Positions 8,494-62,910 of a DNA stretch of 64,000 nucleotides are shown here, in pieces. The translations under genes were made by a program, and so were the position numbers. A model generated the notes under the pieces. It did not search any database. It was given only the letters and a program-made list of their open reading frames with translations, and was not told the origin of the DNA. Positions within the stretch are counted from its first letter, which is position 1. Each line of letters begins with the position of its first letter. This DNA is from an uncultured Spartobacteria bacterium. GTDB taxonomy: Bacteria > Verrucomicrobiota > Verrucomicrobiia > Chthoniobacterales > Chthoniobacteraceae. The stretch covers positions 1 to 64,000 of the forward strand of contig CAIZLD010000056.1 in assembly GCA_903933715.1 (NCBI GenBank), given 5' to 3'.

Positions 8494-9249
8494 TTAAGAT
8501 TTCCAGCGGCGATATTGAAACACCTGGTGGGTCAACCCAAGCATGAGCAGCGTGCCCGAAAGGTAAAAGACGAATCGGCGGGAATCGATGAGCCCTTTGG
8601 AGAACTCGCCCATGTGTTCAAGCGTGGAAAAATAACCGGTGGCCATCCGGAACGCGGGCGATACGTTCGGGGTGAAAAAGGCCAGCAATCCCCCAAAGAA
8701 AAACAGGGTGATCAATGACAGGGAGATCACGGCGGCGACCATCTGGTTTTGGGTCAATACCGACGCAAAACAGCCTAGCGAAATAAAGAGCATCCCAATC
8801 ATGAGGACCATGAGATAGCTCCCCCAGTAAGCTCCGATCGCGTTGGCAGCGTCCGTTTTGACCACGTGCTCGAAGGTGACAAAATATAGGAGCGTCGGCA
8901 GCCAGAGCACGATGTAAAAAGCCAGCGCGCCGCCAAATTTCGAAAGGACCACCTGCCAATCCCGCACCGGGGCGGTCATCAACGTTTCAATGGTTCCCAA
9001 TTTGAACTCCTCGGCGTAGACGCGCATCGTGATGGGCGGAAAAATGAGGATGAACCCGATCCAGAACGGCACGGAATTAAAAAAGGCCTCGATGATCGTC
9101 AGTTCCGTGGCCCCGCGCGAGAGATACGTCACGCTGCTGTAAAAGCAAAACCCGGTCAACAGCAGGAAAAAGCAAAGGACGATGTAGGCGATGGGCGAAT
9201 AAAAGTAAGACTTTATTTCGCGGGAAAGGAGCGTGAGAAATTTGGTCAT
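8494..9249 (-). CDS. ABC-2 type transporter permease (GldF-like)
   Basis: A 251-aa integral membrane protein with about six hydrophobic helices: the first after K-S-Y-F-Y-S-P-I-A-Y (about 18-37), others near 55-75, 105-125, 140-165, 170-190 and 220-240. It pairs with the ATPase upstream and the GldG-like protein downstream. The 18 bp around its start codon (9232-9249) are duplicated exactly at 9470-9487, so the segment between was probably inserted next to this start and displaced the gene from its ATPase partner. The original gap would have been about 13 bp; it is now about 250 bp. Confidence 0.9.
   Translation of the reverse strand: MTKFLTLLSREIKSYFYSPIAYIVLCFFLLLTGFCFYSSVTYLSRGATELTIIEAFFNSVPFWIGFILIFPPITMRVYAEEFKLGTIETLMTAPVRDWQVVLSKFGGALAFYIVLWLPTLLYFVTFEHVVKTDAANAIGAYWGSYLMVLMIGMLFISLGCFASVLTQNQMVAAVISLSLITLFFFGGLLAFFTPNVSPAFRMATGYFSTLEHMGEFSKGLIDSRRFVFYLSGTLLMLGLTHQVFQYRRWKS
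9232..9249. repeat. 18-bp direct repeat, left copy (permease start)
   Basis: CGTGAGAAATTTGGTCAT. It covers the first codons of the permease gene and is repeated identically at 9470-9487 on the far side of elements G and C. Confidence 0.9.
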
Positions 9250-9270
9250 GGGCGGGGAATCAAAGAGTTG

Positions 9271-9296
9271 TTCCGCAGATTAGCGCAGATTTTTTT
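9271..9296. repeat. element G copy 2
   Basis: CCGCAGATTAGCGCAGATTT followed by a T run. It sits next to element C copy 1 inside the duplicated interval. Confidence 0.6.
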
Positions 9297-9300
9297 GGGT

Positions 9301-9455
9301 TCTCGTTCCCAATCTCCTGATTGGGAACGCAAGTCTCCCGGAAACTCTGTTTCCCTTGCGCCTGCCAGACCACGCAACGCCGTCCTGCCTTCCACGGGCT
9401 GCGAAGCTGGAGCTTCGGAGACAAGAGCGTTCCCAATCTGGAGATTGGGAACGAG
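9301..9455. repeat. element C (CGTTCCCAATCTCCTGATTG) copy 1
   Basis: An about 155-bp element bounded by CTCGTTCCCAATCTCCTGAT on the left and CAATCTGGAGATTGGGAACG on the right, which are mutually inverted. Inner short hairpins (GGAAACTCTGTTTCC; GAAGCTGGAGCTTC) lie between. Other copies are at 53285-53438 and 58694-58846. Confidence 0.8.
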
Positions 9456-9469
9456 GGCGCATCAGGCAT

Positions 9470-9487
9470 CGTGAGAAATTTGGTCAT
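9470..9487. repeat. 18-bp direct repeat, right copy
   Basis: CGTGAGAAATTTGGTCAT, identical to 9232-9249. It creates a spurious second M-T-K-F-L-T start 13 bp beyond the ATPase stop codon. Probably the remnant of the original permease start. Confidence 0.9.
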
Positions 9488-9500
9488 TTCGGAAAAAAAT

Positions 9501-10445
9501 TCAGGCTTCGTCGTCGTCGAGCGTCATTTCCACAAAGACATCCTCCAGCGTGGCGCGGCGGCGGGAAAGCTCCCGCACCGTCCAATGCCGGTCGGTGGCA
9601 AGCCGCCAGATTTCCTCGCGTGGATCAGATTGCGAATCGGTGCGGAGGGTAAAGACGCTCCAGGCTTCCTCGGTTTCGACGCTCACTTCTTTCACGCCCG
9701 CAATCTTGCCCAGTTCCGCCGCGCCGTCGTCCGCGCCGGTTTGGGCTTCGAACCGAATCCCCCCGGCGGCGCGCATGTCGTTGACGAGGTTCTCCGGGGT
9801 ATCGGCGGCTTCAATTTTCCCTTTATTAATGATGACCACGCGCGAACAGGTCATTTCCACTTCCGAGAGAATGTGGGTGGAAAGCAGGATGGTGTGATGG
9901 CGGCCCAGGTTCCGGATCAGCTCCCGCACCTGCCGGATCTGGTTGGGGTCGAGCCCGATGGTCGGTTCATCGAGAATCAGCAAATCGGGCGAATGCAGCA
10001 GGGCGTCGGCCAGGCCGACCCGCTGGCGGTATCCCTTGGAAAGAGTGCCGATAATCCGGTTCTCCATTTCCTTGAGGTTGCACAACTCTTTGACGTCGCC
10101 GACCCGCTCCCGCTGGCGGCGACCGGTGATTTCCTTCAACGCGGCCCGGTAATTAAGGTATTCGGTCACGCGCATTTCGGTGTAAAGCGGGACGTTCTCC
10201 GGCATATAGCCGAGGTGTTGCCGGGCCTGGAGCGATTGGGCAAAGACGTCGAACCCGGCGATGGAAGCGCGGCCGGATGTGGCCGGCATGTAGCTCGAAA
10301 GGATGCGCATCGTCGTCGATTTCCCCGCGCCATTGGGCCCCAGAAAGCCGACGATCTCCCCTTTCTCGACTTCAAAGCTCAGGTCGTTGATGGCGGTGAA
10401 GCCCGCATAGCGTTTCGTCAGGTTTTCGACTTTAATCATTGGCAT
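9501..10445 (-). CDS. ABC transporter ATP-binding protein (GldA-like)
   Basis: A 314-aa nucleotide-binding subunit that powers the adjacent permease. Walker A is G-P-N-G-A-G-K-S-T-T (about 37-46), the signature is L-S-K-G-Y-R-Q-R-V-G near 135, and Walker B is L-L-I-L-D-E-P-T near 153-160, with the switch His in L-L-S-T-H-I-L-S. A C-terminal domain of about 90 residues follows, as in GldA/NatA-type ATPases. It is first in the four-gene cluster; its 3' end is followed by a repeat-filled 250-bp gap that interrupts the otherwise tight operon. Confidence 0.92.
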   Translation of the reverse strand: MPMIKVENLTKRYAGFTAINDLSFEVEKGEIVGFLGPNGAGKSTTMRILSSYMPATSGRASIAGFDVFAQSLQARQHLGYMPENVPLYTEMRVTEYLNYRAALKEITGRRQRERVGDVKELCNLKEMENRIIGTLSKGYRQRVGLADALLHSPDLLILDEPTIGLDPNQIRQVRELIRNLGRHHTILLSTHILSEVEMTCSRVVIINKGKIEAADTPENLVNDMRAAGGIRFEAQTGADDGAAELGKIAGVKEVSVETEEAWSVFTLRTDSQSDPREEIWRLATDRHWTVRELSRRRATLEDVFVEMTLDDDEA

Positions 10446-10533: not shown

Positions 10534-10547
10534 TACCGGGATGTCAC
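10534..10547. repeat. 14-bp direct repeat, left copy
   Basis: TACCGGGATGTCAC, identical to 10668-10681. The right copy is the last codons and stop of the HtrA gene; the left copy is non-coding and lies on the other side of element E copy 1. Confidence 0.8.
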
Positions 10548-10583
10548 CTATCCACTTCCCATGCCGATACGAATAGGAATTTG

Positions 10584-10659
10584 TTTCTCGCAAAGACGCA
10601 AAGACGCAAAGGAAAGACAAGCCTGCTCTTCTTTGCGCCTTTGCGTCTTTGCGAGAGAT
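10584..10659. repeat. element E (GCAAAGACGCAAAG) copy 1
   Basis: A hairpin of about 76 bp: TTTCTCGCAAAGACGCAAAG at the left is complementary to CTTTGCGTCTTTGCGAGAGA at the right, with a loop of about 20 nt. Related copies are at 15027-15110 and 53154-53212. Confidence 0.8.
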
Positions 10660-10666
10660 TAAAAAA

Positions 10667-11815
10667 CTACCGGGATGTCACGCTCACGGTTTGAATCTGC
10701 TGCACCACCCGGTCATTCACCTGCCGGACCACGCCCACGGTCAAATCGACCGACGCGTTTCGCTGGGCTCGATTCAGGAGCGACTCCACCTCTTCCGGGC
10801 TGTTGACTTCGTAGCGGCCCAACCGGTAGATCACCAACCCCCGTTGCAAGCCGCTGCGTGCCGCCGGGCTGCCCGGTTCCACATCGGAAATCAGCACCCC
10901 GGTTCCGGCAGGGACTCCCAACGCCTCGCTTAAATCAGGCGTCAGCAGTTGCAGCGTGAGCCCCAGCATGCGCCGGGCGGCTTGGGTCAGGTCGGAACCG
11001 TTTGCCTTGGGACGATTCTGGGCGGCTTTTTTGAACTGCTCCACTTTTTCCGCCACCGTCTTGGCCGGAATCGCAAAACCGATCCCTTGGGTGGGAACCC
11101 CCTGTGGCGTGTAGGCCATTTTTGCCGAGGCGACCCCGACCAGTTTGCCCGCGAGGTCGATCAGCGGCCCGCCGCTGTTGCCCGGATTAATGGCGGCGTC
11201 GGTCTGGAGCAAACCTTCGTATTCGGTGTTGTTGAGTGAAAGGGTGCGGTTGGTGGCGCTGAGGATGCCCCGGGCCACCGAATGCCCGTAGCCCAGCGGA
11301 TTTCCGACGACCAGCAACGTCTGGCCGAGCAAATTGGGTGAGATATCTTTGAGCGAAATGAACGGAAGCGGCGTTTTGCTTTCGATCTTGAGGAGCGCGA
11401 GGTCGGCAGATGGATCGCCGGTGACATACCGGGCACTATAGGTTTTCCCATCGGAAGTCGTGACCTGGATTTTGAGGTCTTCGGCCCGCTCGACCACATG
11501 TTCATTCGTCACAATGTAGCCGGAAGGATCGACAATAAACCCGGAGCCAAGACTTCTTACCGGCGAGCGCACTTCCCGCCGGGGAGCGACTTGTTCCCCA
11601 AAGAACTGGTTGATGAAATCTTCGTAGGGATCACGGACGGCCCGGCGGACGATCCGTTCCGTGTTGACGTTCACGACCGCCGGAAGCGCCTTGGCCGCTG
11701 CCACCACGGACGGCTCGCTGGCCGGATCGGCCGACTCGGCAAAAACCGGCACGGACAACAGGGAAAAAAGCGCAAAAGCCAGCAACCTGGGCAAGAACAA
11801 GGGAGTCAATTTCAT
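10667..11815 (-). CDS. HtrA/Deg-type trypsin-like serine protease with PDZ domain
   Basis: A 382-aa periplasmic protease/chaperone. A signal peptide covers about 1-26 (V-F-A-E-S cleavage region). The catalytic triad is visible: His106 in T-N-E-H-V-V, Asp138 in S-A-D-L-A-L-L and Ser214 in N-P-G-N-S-G-G-P-L. One PDZ domain follows at about 285-375. With a single PDZ it resembles DegS/HtrA more than the two-PDZ DegP. It is first of two such proteases in the window (the other is cut at the right edge). The last 14 bp of coding sequence are duplicated downstream at 10534-10547. Confidence 0.93.
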   Translation of the reverse strand: MKLTPLFLPRLLAFALFSLLSVPVFAESADPASEPSVVAAAKALPAVVNVNTERIVRRAVRDPYEDFINQFFGEQVAPRREVRSPVRSLGSGFIVDPSGYIVTNEHVVERAEDLKIQVTTSDGKTYSARYVTGDPSADLALLKIESKTPLPFISLKDISPNLLGQTLLVVGNPLGYGHSVARGILSATNRTLSLNNTEYEGLLQTDAAINPGNSGGPLIDLAGKLVGVASAKMAYTPQGVPTQGIGFAIPAKTVAEKVEQFKKAAQNRPKANGSDLTQAARRMLGLTLQLLTPDLSEALGVPAGTGVLISDVEPGSPAARSGLQRGLVIYRLGRYEVNSPEEVESLLNRAQRNASVDLTVGVVRQVNDRVVQQIQTVSVTSR

Positions 11816-12218: not shown

Positions 12219-15011
12219 ATGAGGACATCGCTCGTAAACGCTTTTAACGCCGGGCTTTTGGATGAGACTTATCAACAGTGGAAGCGCGATCCCGCCTCGG
12301 TGGACGCCACATGGTCCGCTTTCTTCGAAGGATTTGAACTCGGCTCGACCCCTTCCGCTGGAGCCGCCCCCGTCATCGCCCCCTCTCCCGTGCCGGAAGC
12401 CGAAATGGGCGGCATGGCTCCGATCCCGGCCATTCCCGCCGGGATGCGCCCCGAACTGCCGCTGCAAACCCGCGTGGACGGTTTGGTCTACGCCTATCGC
12501 ACCCTGGGGCACACCCTTGCCCAGATCGACCCGCTCCGGGATACCCGCCCCGAACAGCCGCTCTTGAGCTTGCGGGAACTCGGGTTTAGCGAAAAAGACC
12601 TCGATCTCACCGTCGCCTCCAAGTTTTTCCGGGGCGGGGAATCGATGCGCCTTCGCGAGCTGATCGAAGCGCTGCGCCAGATTTACTGCGGCTCGGTGGG
12701 CGCCGAGTTCATGCACATCCAGAACCCGCGCGTGCGCAACTGGATTCGCGACCGCATCGAAACCCGTCCGCTGGAAAACAGCGTCGCGCCGGAAATCCAG
12801 AAGGCGATCCTGCGCGAGCTTTTGGAGGCGGAGAGCTTCGAGCATTTTCTCCACACCCGGTATGTCGGCCAAAAGCGGTTTTCGCTCGAAGGGGGCGAAT
12901 CGTTGATGGTCATTTTGCAAACCGTCCTGGAGCAATGCCCCGAGCGCGGAGTCGAGGAGATCGTGATGGGAATGGCCCACCGGGGCCGCCTGACGGTTTT
13001 GGCCAATTTCCTGCGCAAATCGCTTCGAACCATTTTTAGCGAGTTTAGCGAAAATTTCATCCCCAACCTTGCGGGAGGAGACGGCGACGTTAAATACCAC
13101 CTCGGGTATGAATCCAGGCGCCAAACCGGCAGCGGCAAGGAAATCGAAATCCGGCTGGCTTCCAATCCCAGCCATCTGGAAGCCGCCGATGCGGTCGTCG
13201 AAGGGGCTACCCGCGCCCGTCAACGGGTCCGGGGCGATACGGAAAACCGGACCAAGGTGCTCCCCGTCTTGATCCATGGCGACGCCGCCTTTGCGGGACA
13301 AGGGGTGGTGGCTGAAGTCTTGAACCTCTCGCAGCTCCCCGGCTACCTTGTGGGCGGGACGGTTCACATCATCGTCAACAACCAGATCGGCTTCACGACG
13401 CTGCCCGCCGATGCCCGCTCCTCCACCTATGCCACCGATGTGGCAAAGATGATCGAAGCTCCTATTTTCCACGTCAATGGGGACGATCCGCTTGCCGTCC
13501 GGTTCGTCACCGAACTGGCGTTTGCCTTCCGCCAGCAATTCCGGCGCGACGCCGTGATCGACATGGTCTGTTATCGCCGTTACGGACACAACGAAGGGGA
13601 CGAGCCGATCTTCACGCAGCCGGATCTTTACGCCGTCATCAACGAGCATCCTTCGGTAGGCAAAATCTTCACCAAAAAACTGGTCGATTCCGCGATTTTG
13701 AGCGACGAGGAAGCCGCCGCGCTGGATGACGAATACGAGAAGAAGCTCGAAACGACGCTCGAAGAGGTCCGCCAAGCCACCGCCCAGCCGGCGGATCGCC
13801 TGGCCGATTCCACCGCCATTTTCCAGCCTCCCTACTCGCACGAGCCGGTCAAAACCGCCGTTTCCAAGTCGGTGATCGACCAGACTGTCAAGGCGCTGAC
13901 GACCGTGCCGGAGGGGTTCCATATTTTGCCGAAGCTCCAGCGGCTTCTGCTGGATCGCCGCGCCAAGTCGCACGCCGCGGGCGGCCCGTATGACTGGGCA
14001 TTTGCCGAGGCGCTGGCGTTCGGATCGCTCCTACTGGAGGGGACGCCGGTGCGGCTCTCCGGCCAGGACAGCCAGCGCGGCACCTTTAGCCAACGCCACG
14101 CGGTTCTCTACGATGCGCAGACCCGCGCCACCTACGCTCCGCTCAAGCATATCAGCGAAACACAGGCCCAGTTCTGCAACTACAACTCCCTCCTCTCCGA
14201 GGCCGCCGTGCTCGGGTTCGACTACGGCTACTCGCTCCATTACCCAACCCTGCTCTGCATCTGGGAAGCGCAATTTGGCGATTTTGCGAACGGCGCGCAG
14301 GTGGTCATTGATCAATTCATCGCCTCGGCGGAATCCAAATGGCAGCGTCCGAGCGGCATCGTTCTGCTCCTGCCGCATGGCTACGAGGGGCAAGGCCCGG
14401 ACCACTCCAGCGGACGCATGGAGCGGTTCCTCCAGCTTTGCGCGGAGGATAATATCCAAGTCGCCGACCTGACCACCCCGGCCCAATATTTCCACATTCT
14501 GCGCCGCCAGATGAAGCGTCCGTTCCGCAAACCGCTCATCATCTTTTCTCCAAAGAGCCTGTTGCGAGCCGAGGCGTGCGTCTCGATGCTCGCCGATTTC
14601 ACAAAAGACCGGTTCCATGAAATCCTGCCGGGGCCGCTGCTCGGGAGCGCCGAAGAAGTCGAGCGGATCATCTTCTGCACCGGCAAGGTCTATTACGACT
14701 TGCTCGCTAAACGGCAGGCGCTTAACCGCGCTGATACCGCGTTCATCCGCATCGAACAGCTTTATCCGCTTCACACCGATGCCATCAAAGAAGCCATTGC
14801 CGCGTATCCGAAGGCCAAGAAATTCATCTGGTGCCAGGAAGAGCCGCGCAACATGGGGGCTTGGACGTTCATTTCCCCCCGGCTTGCTTCCATTGTGGGC
14901 CACCACCTCGCCTATGCCGGACGCGGCGAAGCGGCCAGCACCGCAGTCGGCGCAATGGCCCTCCACAAAATCGAACTTAAAGAATTTCTCGAAGAAGCGT
15001 TTGCAAATTGA
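12219..15011 (+). CDS. sucA: 2-oxoglutarate dehydrogenase E1 component
   Basis: A 930-aa thiamine-diphosphate decarboxylase of the TCA cycle. The N-terminal segment N-A-G-L-L-D-E-T-Y-Q-Q-W-K (about 10-22) is the E2-binding leader typical of OdhA/SucA. The TPP core shows G-M-A-H-R-G-R-L near 249 and G-D-A-A-F-A-G-Q-G near 353, with N-N-Q-I-G-F-T-T completing the cofactor motif. The transketolase-like C-terminal half contains H-G-Y-E-G-Q-G-P-D-H-S-S-G-R. The E2 gene follows after 116 bp containing element E copy 2. No lpd (E3) is adjacent. Confidence 0.95.
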   Translation: MRTSLVNAFNAGLLDETYQQWKRDPASVDATWSAFFEGFELGSTPSAGAAPVIAPSPVPEAEMGGMAPIPAIPAGMRPELPLQTRVDGLVYAYRTLGHTLAQIDPLRDTRPEQPLLSLRELGFSEKDLDLTVASKFFRGGESMRLRELIEALRQIYCGSVGAEFMHIQNPRVRNWIRDRIETRPLENSVAPEIQKAILRELLEAESFEHFLHTRYVGQKRFSLEGGESLMVILQTVLEQCPERGVEEIVMGMAHRGRLTVLANFLRKSLRTIFSEFSENFIPNLAGGDGDVKYHLGYESRRQTGSGKEIEIRLASNPSHLEAADAVVEGATRARQRVRGDTENRTKVLPVLIHGDAAFAGQGVVAEVLNLSQLPGYLVGGTVHIIVNNQIGFTTLPADARSSTYATDVAKMIEAPIFHVNGDDPLAVRFVTELAFAFRQQFRRDAVIDMVCYRRYGHNEGDEPIFTQPDLYAVINEHPSVGKIFTKKLVDSAILSDEEAAALDDEYEKKLETTLEEVRQATAQPADRLADSTAIFQPPYSHEPVKTAVSKSVIDQTVKALTTVPEGFHILPKLQRLLLDRRAKSHAAGGPYDWAFAEALAFGSLLLEGTPVRLSGQDSQRGTFSQRHAVLYDAQTRATYAPLKHISETQAQFCNYNSLLSEAAVLGFDYGYSLHYPTLLCIWEAQFGDFANGAQVVIDQFIASAESKWQRPSGIVLLLPHGYEGQGPDHSSGRMERFLQLCAEDNIQVADLTTPAQYFHILRRQMKRPFRKPLIIFSPKSLLRAEACVSMLADFTKDRFHEILPGPLLGSAEEVERIIFCTGKVYYDLLAKRQALNRADTAFIRIEQLYPLHTDAIKEAIAAYPKAKKFIWCQEEPRNMGAWTFISPRLASIVGHHLAYAGRGEAASTAVGAMALHKIELKEFLEEAFAN

Positions 15012-15026
15012 AAACACCGAAGATGT

Positions 15027-15110
15027 TTCACGCAAAGCCGCAAAGCCGCAAAGAAAGAGATGGCCGCCACGCATTTCTACTCTTTGCGCCTTTGCGTCTT
15101 TGCGTGAGAT
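15027..15110. repeat. element E copy 2
   Basis: TTTCACGCAAAGCCGCAAAG at the left is complementary to CTTTGCGTCTTTGCGTGAGA at the right. It occupies most of the sucA-sucB spacer, and could act as an mRNA hairpin between E1 and E2. Confidence 0.75.
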
Positions 15111-15127
15111 AAAATAATTTTCTCCTT

Positions 15128-16141
15128 ATGAGCTTTGAAATCAAAATCCCCTCGGTTGGCGAATCGATCGTAAGCGGCGTGCTATCCGTCTGGCACAAGC
15201 AGGACGGGGAGACCGTGGCCCCCGGAGATGTTCTCTTCACGCTGGAAACCGACAAAGTCTCCACCGAGATCACCGCCGAAAAAGCGGGCGTGCTCCATAT
15301 TCTCGTCCCGCAGGGGGAAGAGGTTAAAATCGGCGCGGTGGTGGGGACGATTGGCGAAGCTTCCGGCGAACCGGCCGCCCCGGCTCCGCAACCGGAGAAG
15401 AAACCGGAGCCGCTCCCCCAGCCTGAAAAGAAAGCTGCGCCCGAGCGGTTCACCCGCAAAAAGATGTCGCCGTTGCGGCGCAAAATCGCCGCCCAGCTCG
15501 TGATGGCGCAGCAAACCGCGGCCATCCTGACCACCTTCAACGAGTGCGACATGAGCGCAGTGATGGAGTTGCGCAACCGCCTTAAAGACGATTTCACCAA
15601 GGAGCGCGGTGTAAAACTTGGCTTTATGTCATTTTTTATCAAAGCGACCGTCGCCGCGCTCAAAGCCGTCCCGGCGGTCAATAGCCGGATCGACGGCGAA
15701 GACCTGATTTTAAACGAATATTTTGATATCGGTGTCGCCGTCGGGACCGAACGCGGGCTGGTGGTGCCGGTGATCCGCGATGCGGATCGCAAAGATTTCG
15801 CCCAGCTCGAAAAAGACCTCGTCGTCTACGCCCAGAGCGCCCGCGACGGCAAACTGCGCGTCGAAGATTTGCAAGGCGGCGTTTTTACCATTTCCAATGG
15901 CGGAGTCTACGGCTCGCTTCTGAGCACGCCGATCCTCAACCCGCCCCAAAGCGGGATTCTGGGCCTGCACAAGATCATGGAACGGCCGATCGCCGTCAAC
16001 GGCCAGATCGTGATCCGACCCATGATGAACCTCGCCCTGAGCTACGACCACCGCGTGATCGACGGCAAGGAAGCAGTCACCTTCCTCATCAAAGTGAAGG
16101 AAGCGATCGAAGACCCGGCCCGGCTGCTGCTGGCTTTGTAG
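15128..16141 (+). CDS. sucB: 2-oxoacid dehydrogenase E2 (dihydrolipoamide succinyltransferase), short form
   Basis: A 337-aa E2 subunit. The lipoyl domain (1-75) carries the lipoylated Lys43 in E-T-D-K-V-S-T-E. A Pro/Glu/Lys-rich linker (about 76-107) leads directly into the acyltransferase core, starting at M-S-P-L-R-R-K-I-A. The core ends with the catalytic D-H-R-V-I-D-G motif (His308, Asp312). The roughly 40-residue peripheral subunit-binding domain that normally docks E3 between linker and core is not visible, which explains the length below the usual 400 or so. Placement behind sucA supports the succinyltransferase assignment. Confidence 0.9.
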
Positions 16142-62268: not shown

Positions 62269-62649
62269 ATGAGCCCAATGCGTTTATTCCGTTGGATCGC
62301 GCTGGCTGCGGTGTCTTGCGCCGCGATGCCTGCGGGGGCCGCTCCTGAAGCAGCCGCCACTCCAGTTGCAATCACCACGCCAACTCCGGCGGCCACGCCC
62401 AAGGCACGCCCTTTTCCGTTTCAAAGCGTGGTCATCTCGGTCGATGCGGCAGCAAAAAGCTTCCGCATGGGCAAAAAGATCGTCCACCAAGTCTATATCG
62501 TGCCAACAACGCGTGTTATGAACGGCGATGGGACTCCGGGAACATTTGAGAGCCTGAAACCGGGCGTGGAGGTCCGGGGCGCAGTCCGCAAACGGGTTAA
62601 TGGCGATTACGAAGCGGTTTCGGTGAAGATCGGCCCCAAGCCGGATTAG
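62269..62649 (+). CDS. small secreted protein of unknown function
   Basis: A 126-aa protein with a signal peptide (W-I-A-L-A-A-V-S-C, then A-G-A), an Ala/Pro/Thr linker to about 50, and a C-terminal domain (F-Q-S-V-V-I-S-V-D-A-A-A-K; L-K-P-G-V-E-V-R-G-A-V) that looks like a small OB/beta-barrel. It starts 2 bp after the acyltransferase stop, so it is probably co-transcribed. No function known to me. Confidence 0.7.
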   Translation: MSPMRLFRWIALAAVSCAAMPAGAAPEAAATPVAITTPTPAATPKARPFPFQSVVISVDAAAKSFRMGKKIVHQVYIVPTTRVMNGDGTPGTFESLKPGVEVRGAVRKRVNGDYEAVSVKIGPKPD

Positions 62650-62910
62650 GCTGAATTGACATTCAGATCGAGCCAAACCCAAAGGGTTTGAAGCCCATAG
62701 CCGGTGGTTGAGCGTTAGCGACACCACCGGATGAGGTGTTTGAAAGAATTCACCCCAAAGGGGTGGCAGAAAACGAGGCGATGGCCTCTGCCACCCCTTT
62801 GGGGTGAGAAGCGGTTTTGCATTGAACCGGTGGTGTCGCTAACGCTCAACCACCGGCTATTTGCTGGCAACCCTTCGGGTTGCGGCGGCTTTTGAATGTC
62901 GATTCTGCTT
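62650..62910. repeat. palindromic element A, copy 2
   Basis: Begins immediately after the stop of the preceding gene. Same arms as 28-290 (GGCTGAATTGACATTCAGAT on the left, mirrored near 62895-62910), but the middle is inverted relative to copy 1. It fills the gap before the convergent pyrF. Confidence 0.88.

Follow-up and report, generated by a model that had tools for sequence, protein, structure and literature searches.

The junction between the ATPase and permease genes of a Gld-like operon carries a 220-bp insert bracketed by two exact copies of an 18-bp sequence, and our comparisons support the view that, among the relatives examined, this genome alone has the insert and the second copy. 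We propose, with a probability of roughly one half, that a repeat of the family here called C was captured at this junction together with a G-type hairpin and that the 18-bp duplication was made by DNA repair. The intergenic space of many environmental bacteria is full of short hairpin repeats, which raises the question of how these spread. The present junction is legible in dozens of relatives and displays several unrelated repeat families as well as a clean duplication at one insertion; the insertion step therefore becomes testable as a fixed footprint, a repair-type duplication or tandem copying.

The junction and its insert

The window, that is, the whole stretch of 64,000 nucleotides analysed, contains the exact 18-mer CGTGAGAAATTTGGTCAT at both edges of the insert. 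The features around the junction are listed below.

8494-9249, minus strand: ABC-2 permease, GldF-like, under the curated cut-off
9232-9249, minus strand: copy 1 of the 18-mer, the native permease start (six codons, MTKFLT)
9250-9469: insert between both 18-mer copies, 220 bp
9250-9270: spacer adjoining the permease start, 21 bp, CAACTCTTTGATTCCCCGCCC on the minus strand; may belong to the native spacer (weak, by-eye comparison with G003 and L006)
9260-9487, minus strand: 75-codon frame from the ATG of copy 2
about 9271-9296: lone arm of a G-type hairpin, CCGCAGATTAGCGCAGATT, partner arm absent
about 9302-9455: element C, a putative REP/TIRYT-type double-hairpin repeat, 154 bp
9304-9329: hairpin 1 of C, CGTTCCCAATCTCCTGATTGGGAACG
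9428-9453: hairpin 2 of C, CGTTCCCAATCTGGAGATTGGGAACG
9456-9469: 14-bp filler from C to copy 2, unique among the sequences compared
9470-9487, minus strand: copy 2 of the 18-mer, separated by 13 bp from the stop of the ATPase gene
9501-10445, minus strand: ABC transporter ATPase, GldA-like, under the curated cut-off
10534-10681: second flanked repeat, a CGCAAAG-type hairpin (about 10586-10656) between exact 14-bp copies of TACCGGGATGTCAC

The two 18-bp copies and the 13-bp distance between the ATPase stop and copy 2 (9488-9500) are as given in the initial annotation, and no unique direct repeat within 800 bp in the window is longer than the 18-mer. When up to three mismatches are allowed, CGTGAGAAATTTGGTCAT has two matches in the window where 0.07 are expected, and none of 100 shuffles gave two, which rules out a chance match. 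An assembly artefact might be considered given that the genome is a draft of 77 contigs and that several copies of C are close to the end of a contig, but the copies are separated by filler that is unique among the sequences compared and they lie inside a 98-kb contig, so that chance and artefact taken together are extremely improbable. The label "Gld-like" is likewise fair, as the best NCBIfam matches of the operon proteins are GldA, GldF and GldG and the operon resembles gldA-gldF-gldG, though all three proteins score below the equivalog cut-offs for a gliding-motility Gld transporter (GldA 320.9 against 402.6, GldF 156 against 288.5 and GldG 62.4 against 389.85 bits).

Elements G and C had both been placed between the two copies. 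C is indeed present, but G is represented by one arm of the CCGCAGATT hairpin and not by a whole element. Three stretches outside C (the 14-bp filler, 24 bp by the permease, and the G arm with its flank) occur at this locus only among the sequences compared, and a search of the same sequences for a donor site, using the filler, returned nothing besides its own locus. The sequence AACTCTTTGATTCCCCGCCC, now beside the permease, may be part of the native spacer. Read as RNA, the insert strand has a folding energy of -106.9 kcal/mol (z -5.27) and none of 200 shuffles was equally stable. A terminator role was set aside, as the search for it returned two sites against 1.4 expected, one of them being hairpin 2 of C.

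Copy 2 could also have been kept or selected because it provides a start codon close to where the ATPase gene stops, with ribosomes reading the 75-codon frame and re-starting at the permease. The frame from 9487 to 9260 does stop 10 bp ahead of the permease ATG; however, a frame as long or longer was found in 1071 of 5000 shuffled inserts, so that a protected frame is not significant, and such a role is silent on the origin of copy 2. We regard this explanation as improbable.

At the second flanked repeat, the copies of TACCGGGATGTCAC lie at 10534-10547 and 10668-10681, and the end of a trypsin-like gene falls within the right copy. Four microRNA-family matches in Rfam, far under their gathering scores, all fall over this neighbouring hairpin (10.57-10.67 kb) and are taken as chance matches to a hairpin. 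Elsewhere in the window, a CGCAAAG hairpin lies at 14990-15150 in a sucA-sucB-like spacer (names by eye), which is short and empty in G001 and holds another repeat family in G004 (comparison including L134, 14240-14310), and a long hairpin repeat (CCGGTGGTTGAGC...) is found near both window ends (24-286 and 62644-62881).

The junction in relatives

Four congeneric genomes (G001-G004) were compared with the genome under study (G000), which the names of its closest relatives place among Chthoniobacterales-like Verrucomicrobiota. The nearest relatives share about 80% protein identity in the permease, and because of this distance the pre-insertion sequence itself is not seen. The junction is uninterrupted in two congeners, with spacers of 20 bp in G003 and 25 bp in G004, whereas in G001 it is occupied by an arm-type element of another kind that contains a C hairpin, and in G002 by a complete G-type hairpin. 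A spacer with both 18-bp copies is thus not shared by the congeners, two of them being tight and two carrying other repeats. The single-copy 13-bp junction that had been predicted was in turn found in no relative examined, and the specific idea that an ancestral junction of 13 bp underwent target duplication is unproven.

A wider set of 79 named relative loci was taken, in 73 of which the ATPase and permease genes are adjacent; L031, L032, L033 and L045 correspond to G002, G003, G001 and G004 and are not independent of the congeners, and a comparison of L073 with L074 gives a score of 1.0 in the region covered. None of the 73 adjacent junctions has the 18-mer in its ATPase-permease spacer. Spacer length is below 60 bp in 43 junctions, 60-119 bp in four and at least 120 bp in 26, and by eye most of the long spacers contain hairpin repeats from several unrelated families. 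Three of them (L049, L059 and L069) hold an apparent four-helix IVP gene between TGGAGTAA-like arms, with HMM confirmation for L059. The flanks of L069 are 93-94% identical to those of L050, L053 and L067, whose junction repeat differs greatly, and this contrast, together with the varied spacer repeats, points to the junction as a site of rapid turnover.

Element C and its flanking duplications

The palindrome CGTTCCCAATCTNNNGATTGGGAACG of element C occurs in all five genomes of the genus, with 21 forward and 20 reverse matches in this genome, while the reversed-pattern control gave none. At least two hairpins are present in 22 of 36 C elements of this genome, giving the multi-copy, inverted-pair arrangement of TIRtron/TIRYT repeats. 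As in TIRYTs, C hairpins are located on both sides (1644 and 2274) of a transposase gene (L143:1703-2281). The encoded protein matches NF047646 of NCBIfam (E 7e-33) and no Pfam family at 1e-3; when it was searched for a HUH motif and a catalytic tyrosine, THFHAI and LDYLHHNPVRAG were visible by eye. Matches to Y1_Tnp in G003:C485 and G001:C102 also lie between C-type matches. The GTAG at the hairpin foot that characterizes GTAG REPs and REPINs is absent, by reading, from 9302-9455. Because the palindrome is genus-wide and brackets a transposase, C is filed with the TIRtron/TIRYT or REPIN-like repeats without a GTAG tag and, judged from sequence, is a REP/TIRYT-type repeat linked to a REP-associated tyrosine transposase. 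An end of a separate MITE, CTAGTGGG(N)TGTCA, was seen in 17 of 33 C-type loci of this genome (L143-L175), with three complete copies of 266-274 bp.

In this genome, 36 C elements with flanks of 100 bp were searched for exact direct repeats of at least 13 bp across them, with 1260 mismatched flank pairs as control. Five elements are straddled by such repeats where 0.36 are expected; the repeats measure 13, 18, 18, 27 and 34 bp, the junction studied here being one of the 18s, and they stand 0-61 bp from C. No flanking repeat was found at the other 31 elements, nor at 43 of 44 C elements in G001-G004, in which the single straddled element does not exceed the control (1.26 expected). A general, genus-wide rule that C insertion duplicates its target is therefore unsupported; the five of 36 here against one of 44 in congeners indicate that C insertion is now and then accompanied by duplication, plainly so in this genome.

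Two of the sites bear directly on gene starts. At L164, C lies between two copies of about 23 bp (13 bp exact, one indel) that include a coaBC-like start codon (name by eye), and this site is empty in all four congeners. At L161 (G000:C42), the repeat spans a tilS-like start (name by eye); G003 and G004 have no C element there, and G002 and G001 have inserts of their own at this position. By eye, the tilS-like gene at L161 could now begin in the C-element loop with a new N-terminus.

These sites could be read as true target-site duplications, in which the transposase of C cuts with a long stagger, the repeats are its footprint and the fillers are carried donor flanks. The geometry of a C element between two copies of a flanking sequence X (X-C-X) recurs at several sites, with empty counterparts in congeners, and imperfect repeat extensions at L161 and L167 approach C (by eye). 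Nevertheless, the repeats differ widely in length and in how far they stand from C, most C copies have no repeats, and the related IS200/IS605-type transposases are reported, in the available part of PMC2817692, to make no larger target duplications. This variation in length and position, together with the behaviour of the IS200/IS605 relatives, argues against a stagger set by a transposase, and we consider a true target-site duplication unlikely. A target-site duplication of fixed length was rejected for C, given exact lengths of 13-34 bp and gaps of 0-61 bp at 5/36 elements.

Tandem copying was weighed as well, since C might have been duplicated along with its flank, as in REPIN clusters, with subsequent loss of one unit. 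Tandem units do exist at L148 (246-bp spacing) and in an X-C-X-C-X array at L219, and REPIN clusters that repeat with their flanks have been described (PMC3116915, in the part available). However, this route needs two events, and at L164, where on either side of C the repeat takes in the native start and spacer of native appearance, duplication at insertion fits at least equally well; we judge tandem copying, too, to be unlikely, though a genuine alternative.

Beyond the 36-element count, a 464-kb scan yielded a further straddled case, L230, whose repeat measures 36 bp. The scan gave 32 unique direct repeats with a length of at least 14 bp; 11 of these surround a repeat-family motif, compared with 129 of 1720 random intervals (7.5%), the 11 being not independent because several belong to one local tandem array (L217). 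Among eight arm-type elements, which had been located with a strict search pattern, one is flanked by a repeat (14 bp).

How the duplication may have arisen

The proposal that a C-type repeat was captured and the duplication made by repair would proceed as follows. The repeat would enter the ATPase-permease junction either accompanied by a G-type hairpin or within one, a single arm of which is left, and the same event would duplicate the 18 bp with which the permease gene begins. Two repair routes could achieve this: either two offset nicks would be filled and the ends joined with the captured repeat between them, or a repair polymerase would re-copy nearby sequence. We infer repair rather than a transposase stagger because the sister sites differ in how long the duplicated stretch is and how far it lies from C, and either route would explain both the variable repeats and the unmatched filler. 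Ku was found in G000, G001 and G004 but not in G002 and G003; since this genome has Ku, end-joining may be available, its presence being no proof of use.

Duplication of a gene start leaves both neighbour genes whole, and selection would presumably favour such survivors. The intactness of both genes would thus explain the survival of such insertions in tight operon junctions.

The idea that this is an insertion with target duplication accordingly holds in part. The insert is seen in this genome alone among those examined, C is multi-copy and similar duplications exist at other C copies, but an ordinary target-site duplication does not agree with the varying lengths and gaps, nor with the many C elements that have no repeat. 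The broader suggestion that the repeats are mobile or spread by a repair process agrees with our results as regards mobility in a broad sense, and it was right to leave repair open.

The G arm and related hairpin elements

Most of the intergenic GxxExxY (PF13366) and 23S-IVP (PF05635) genes viewed in the genus (L176-L191) lie, by eye, between inverted arms of short repeated units, and the arm sequences differ from copy to copy; the phylum loci (L251-L309) mostly show the same arrangement. The exceptions are L191, a sub-threshold IVP match without such arms, and some others, among them L184 and L190, which are ambiguous by eye. The units measure 9 nt (also 8) where the gene is GxxExxY and 7 nt where it is IVP. 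When genus and phylum were combined, 34 of the 40 GxxExxY loci given and 33 of the 35 IVP loci were usable for an arm test. Arms with an alignment score of at least 15 were found at 30 of these GxxExxY loci and 21 of the IVP loci, a score reached by 4.9% and 3.3% of mismatched pairs, respectively; some high-scoring arms, e.g., those of L264 and L269, are simple palindromes. A stricter cut at the 99th percentile of mismatched pairs, used first, was passed by 7 of 27 GxxExxY and 0 of 28 IVP loci, so few because the arms of different loci resemble each other. In the phylum sample, PF13366 was found in 69 and PF05635 in 100 of 145 genomes.

The insert holds one G arm only, not the pair of arms of a GxxExxY hairpin element. 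The paired form is found in the same genome at L179, where a GxxExxY gene lies between G-type arms, and for this reason the best reading of the insert's arm is one half of a GxxExxY-type element that has no gene. A literature search returned no report of GxxExxY or IVP genes between tandem-unit arms, which, from the portions of the sources available, is no proof of absence from print. Somewhat more speculatively, the G arm could be the remnant of an undescribed class of mobile hairpins in Verrucomicrobiota that carry, between inverted arms of short tandem units, a small gene for GxxExxY, a PD-(D/E)XK family, or for the four-helix IVP, with an arm unit of 9 nt or 7 nt by family, and that share operon-junction hot spots with TIRYT repeats. 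Joint insertion would then duplicate a variable target stretch, here the gene start, with the operon kept intact. The link between arm period and encoded protein would help to assign repeats to the proteins that move them.

Comparison with known systems

Long or variable target duplications are a feature of certain insertion sequences, namely IS1549 and the IS1202 group. The junction resembles these in having variable-length direct repeats on both sides of an insert; unlike them, the insert has no transposase gene and the repeats need not abut the element. The intervening sequences of 23S rRNA encode the four-helix IVP and have hairpin arms around the gene. Arms around an IVP gene are likewise present at the ATPase-permease junction of three relatives (L059 by HMM), but these elements lie between protein genes and not in rRNA, and their arms consist of units of about 7 nt.

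Parallels are also offered by repeat families associated with tyrosine transposases. TIRtrons/TIRYTs are families of inverted repeats, in many cases dimeric and self-complementary in part; they border a RAYT-like tyrosine transposase gene, and further copies lie elsewhere in the genome without it (Di Nocera et al., 2013, PMC3733652, in the part available). C is like them in flanking a tyrosine transposase and in also occurring without one. It differs in that the copy in the window is without the GGGGWSAS motif (by eye) and in its flanking duplications of at least 13 bp, of which the available portions of that report make no mention. REPINs and GTAG REPs are intergenic and multi-copy, with two inverted hairpins per unit, a REP-associated tyrosine transposase and tandem clusters that include flanks (Bertels and Rainey, 2011, PMC3116915, again as far as the available part describes them). 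Although the C copy is by eye without the GTAG tag at the hairpin foot, C shares with REPINs the inverted double hairpin, the intergenic and multi-copy occurrence, the link to a transposase and the tandem clusters.
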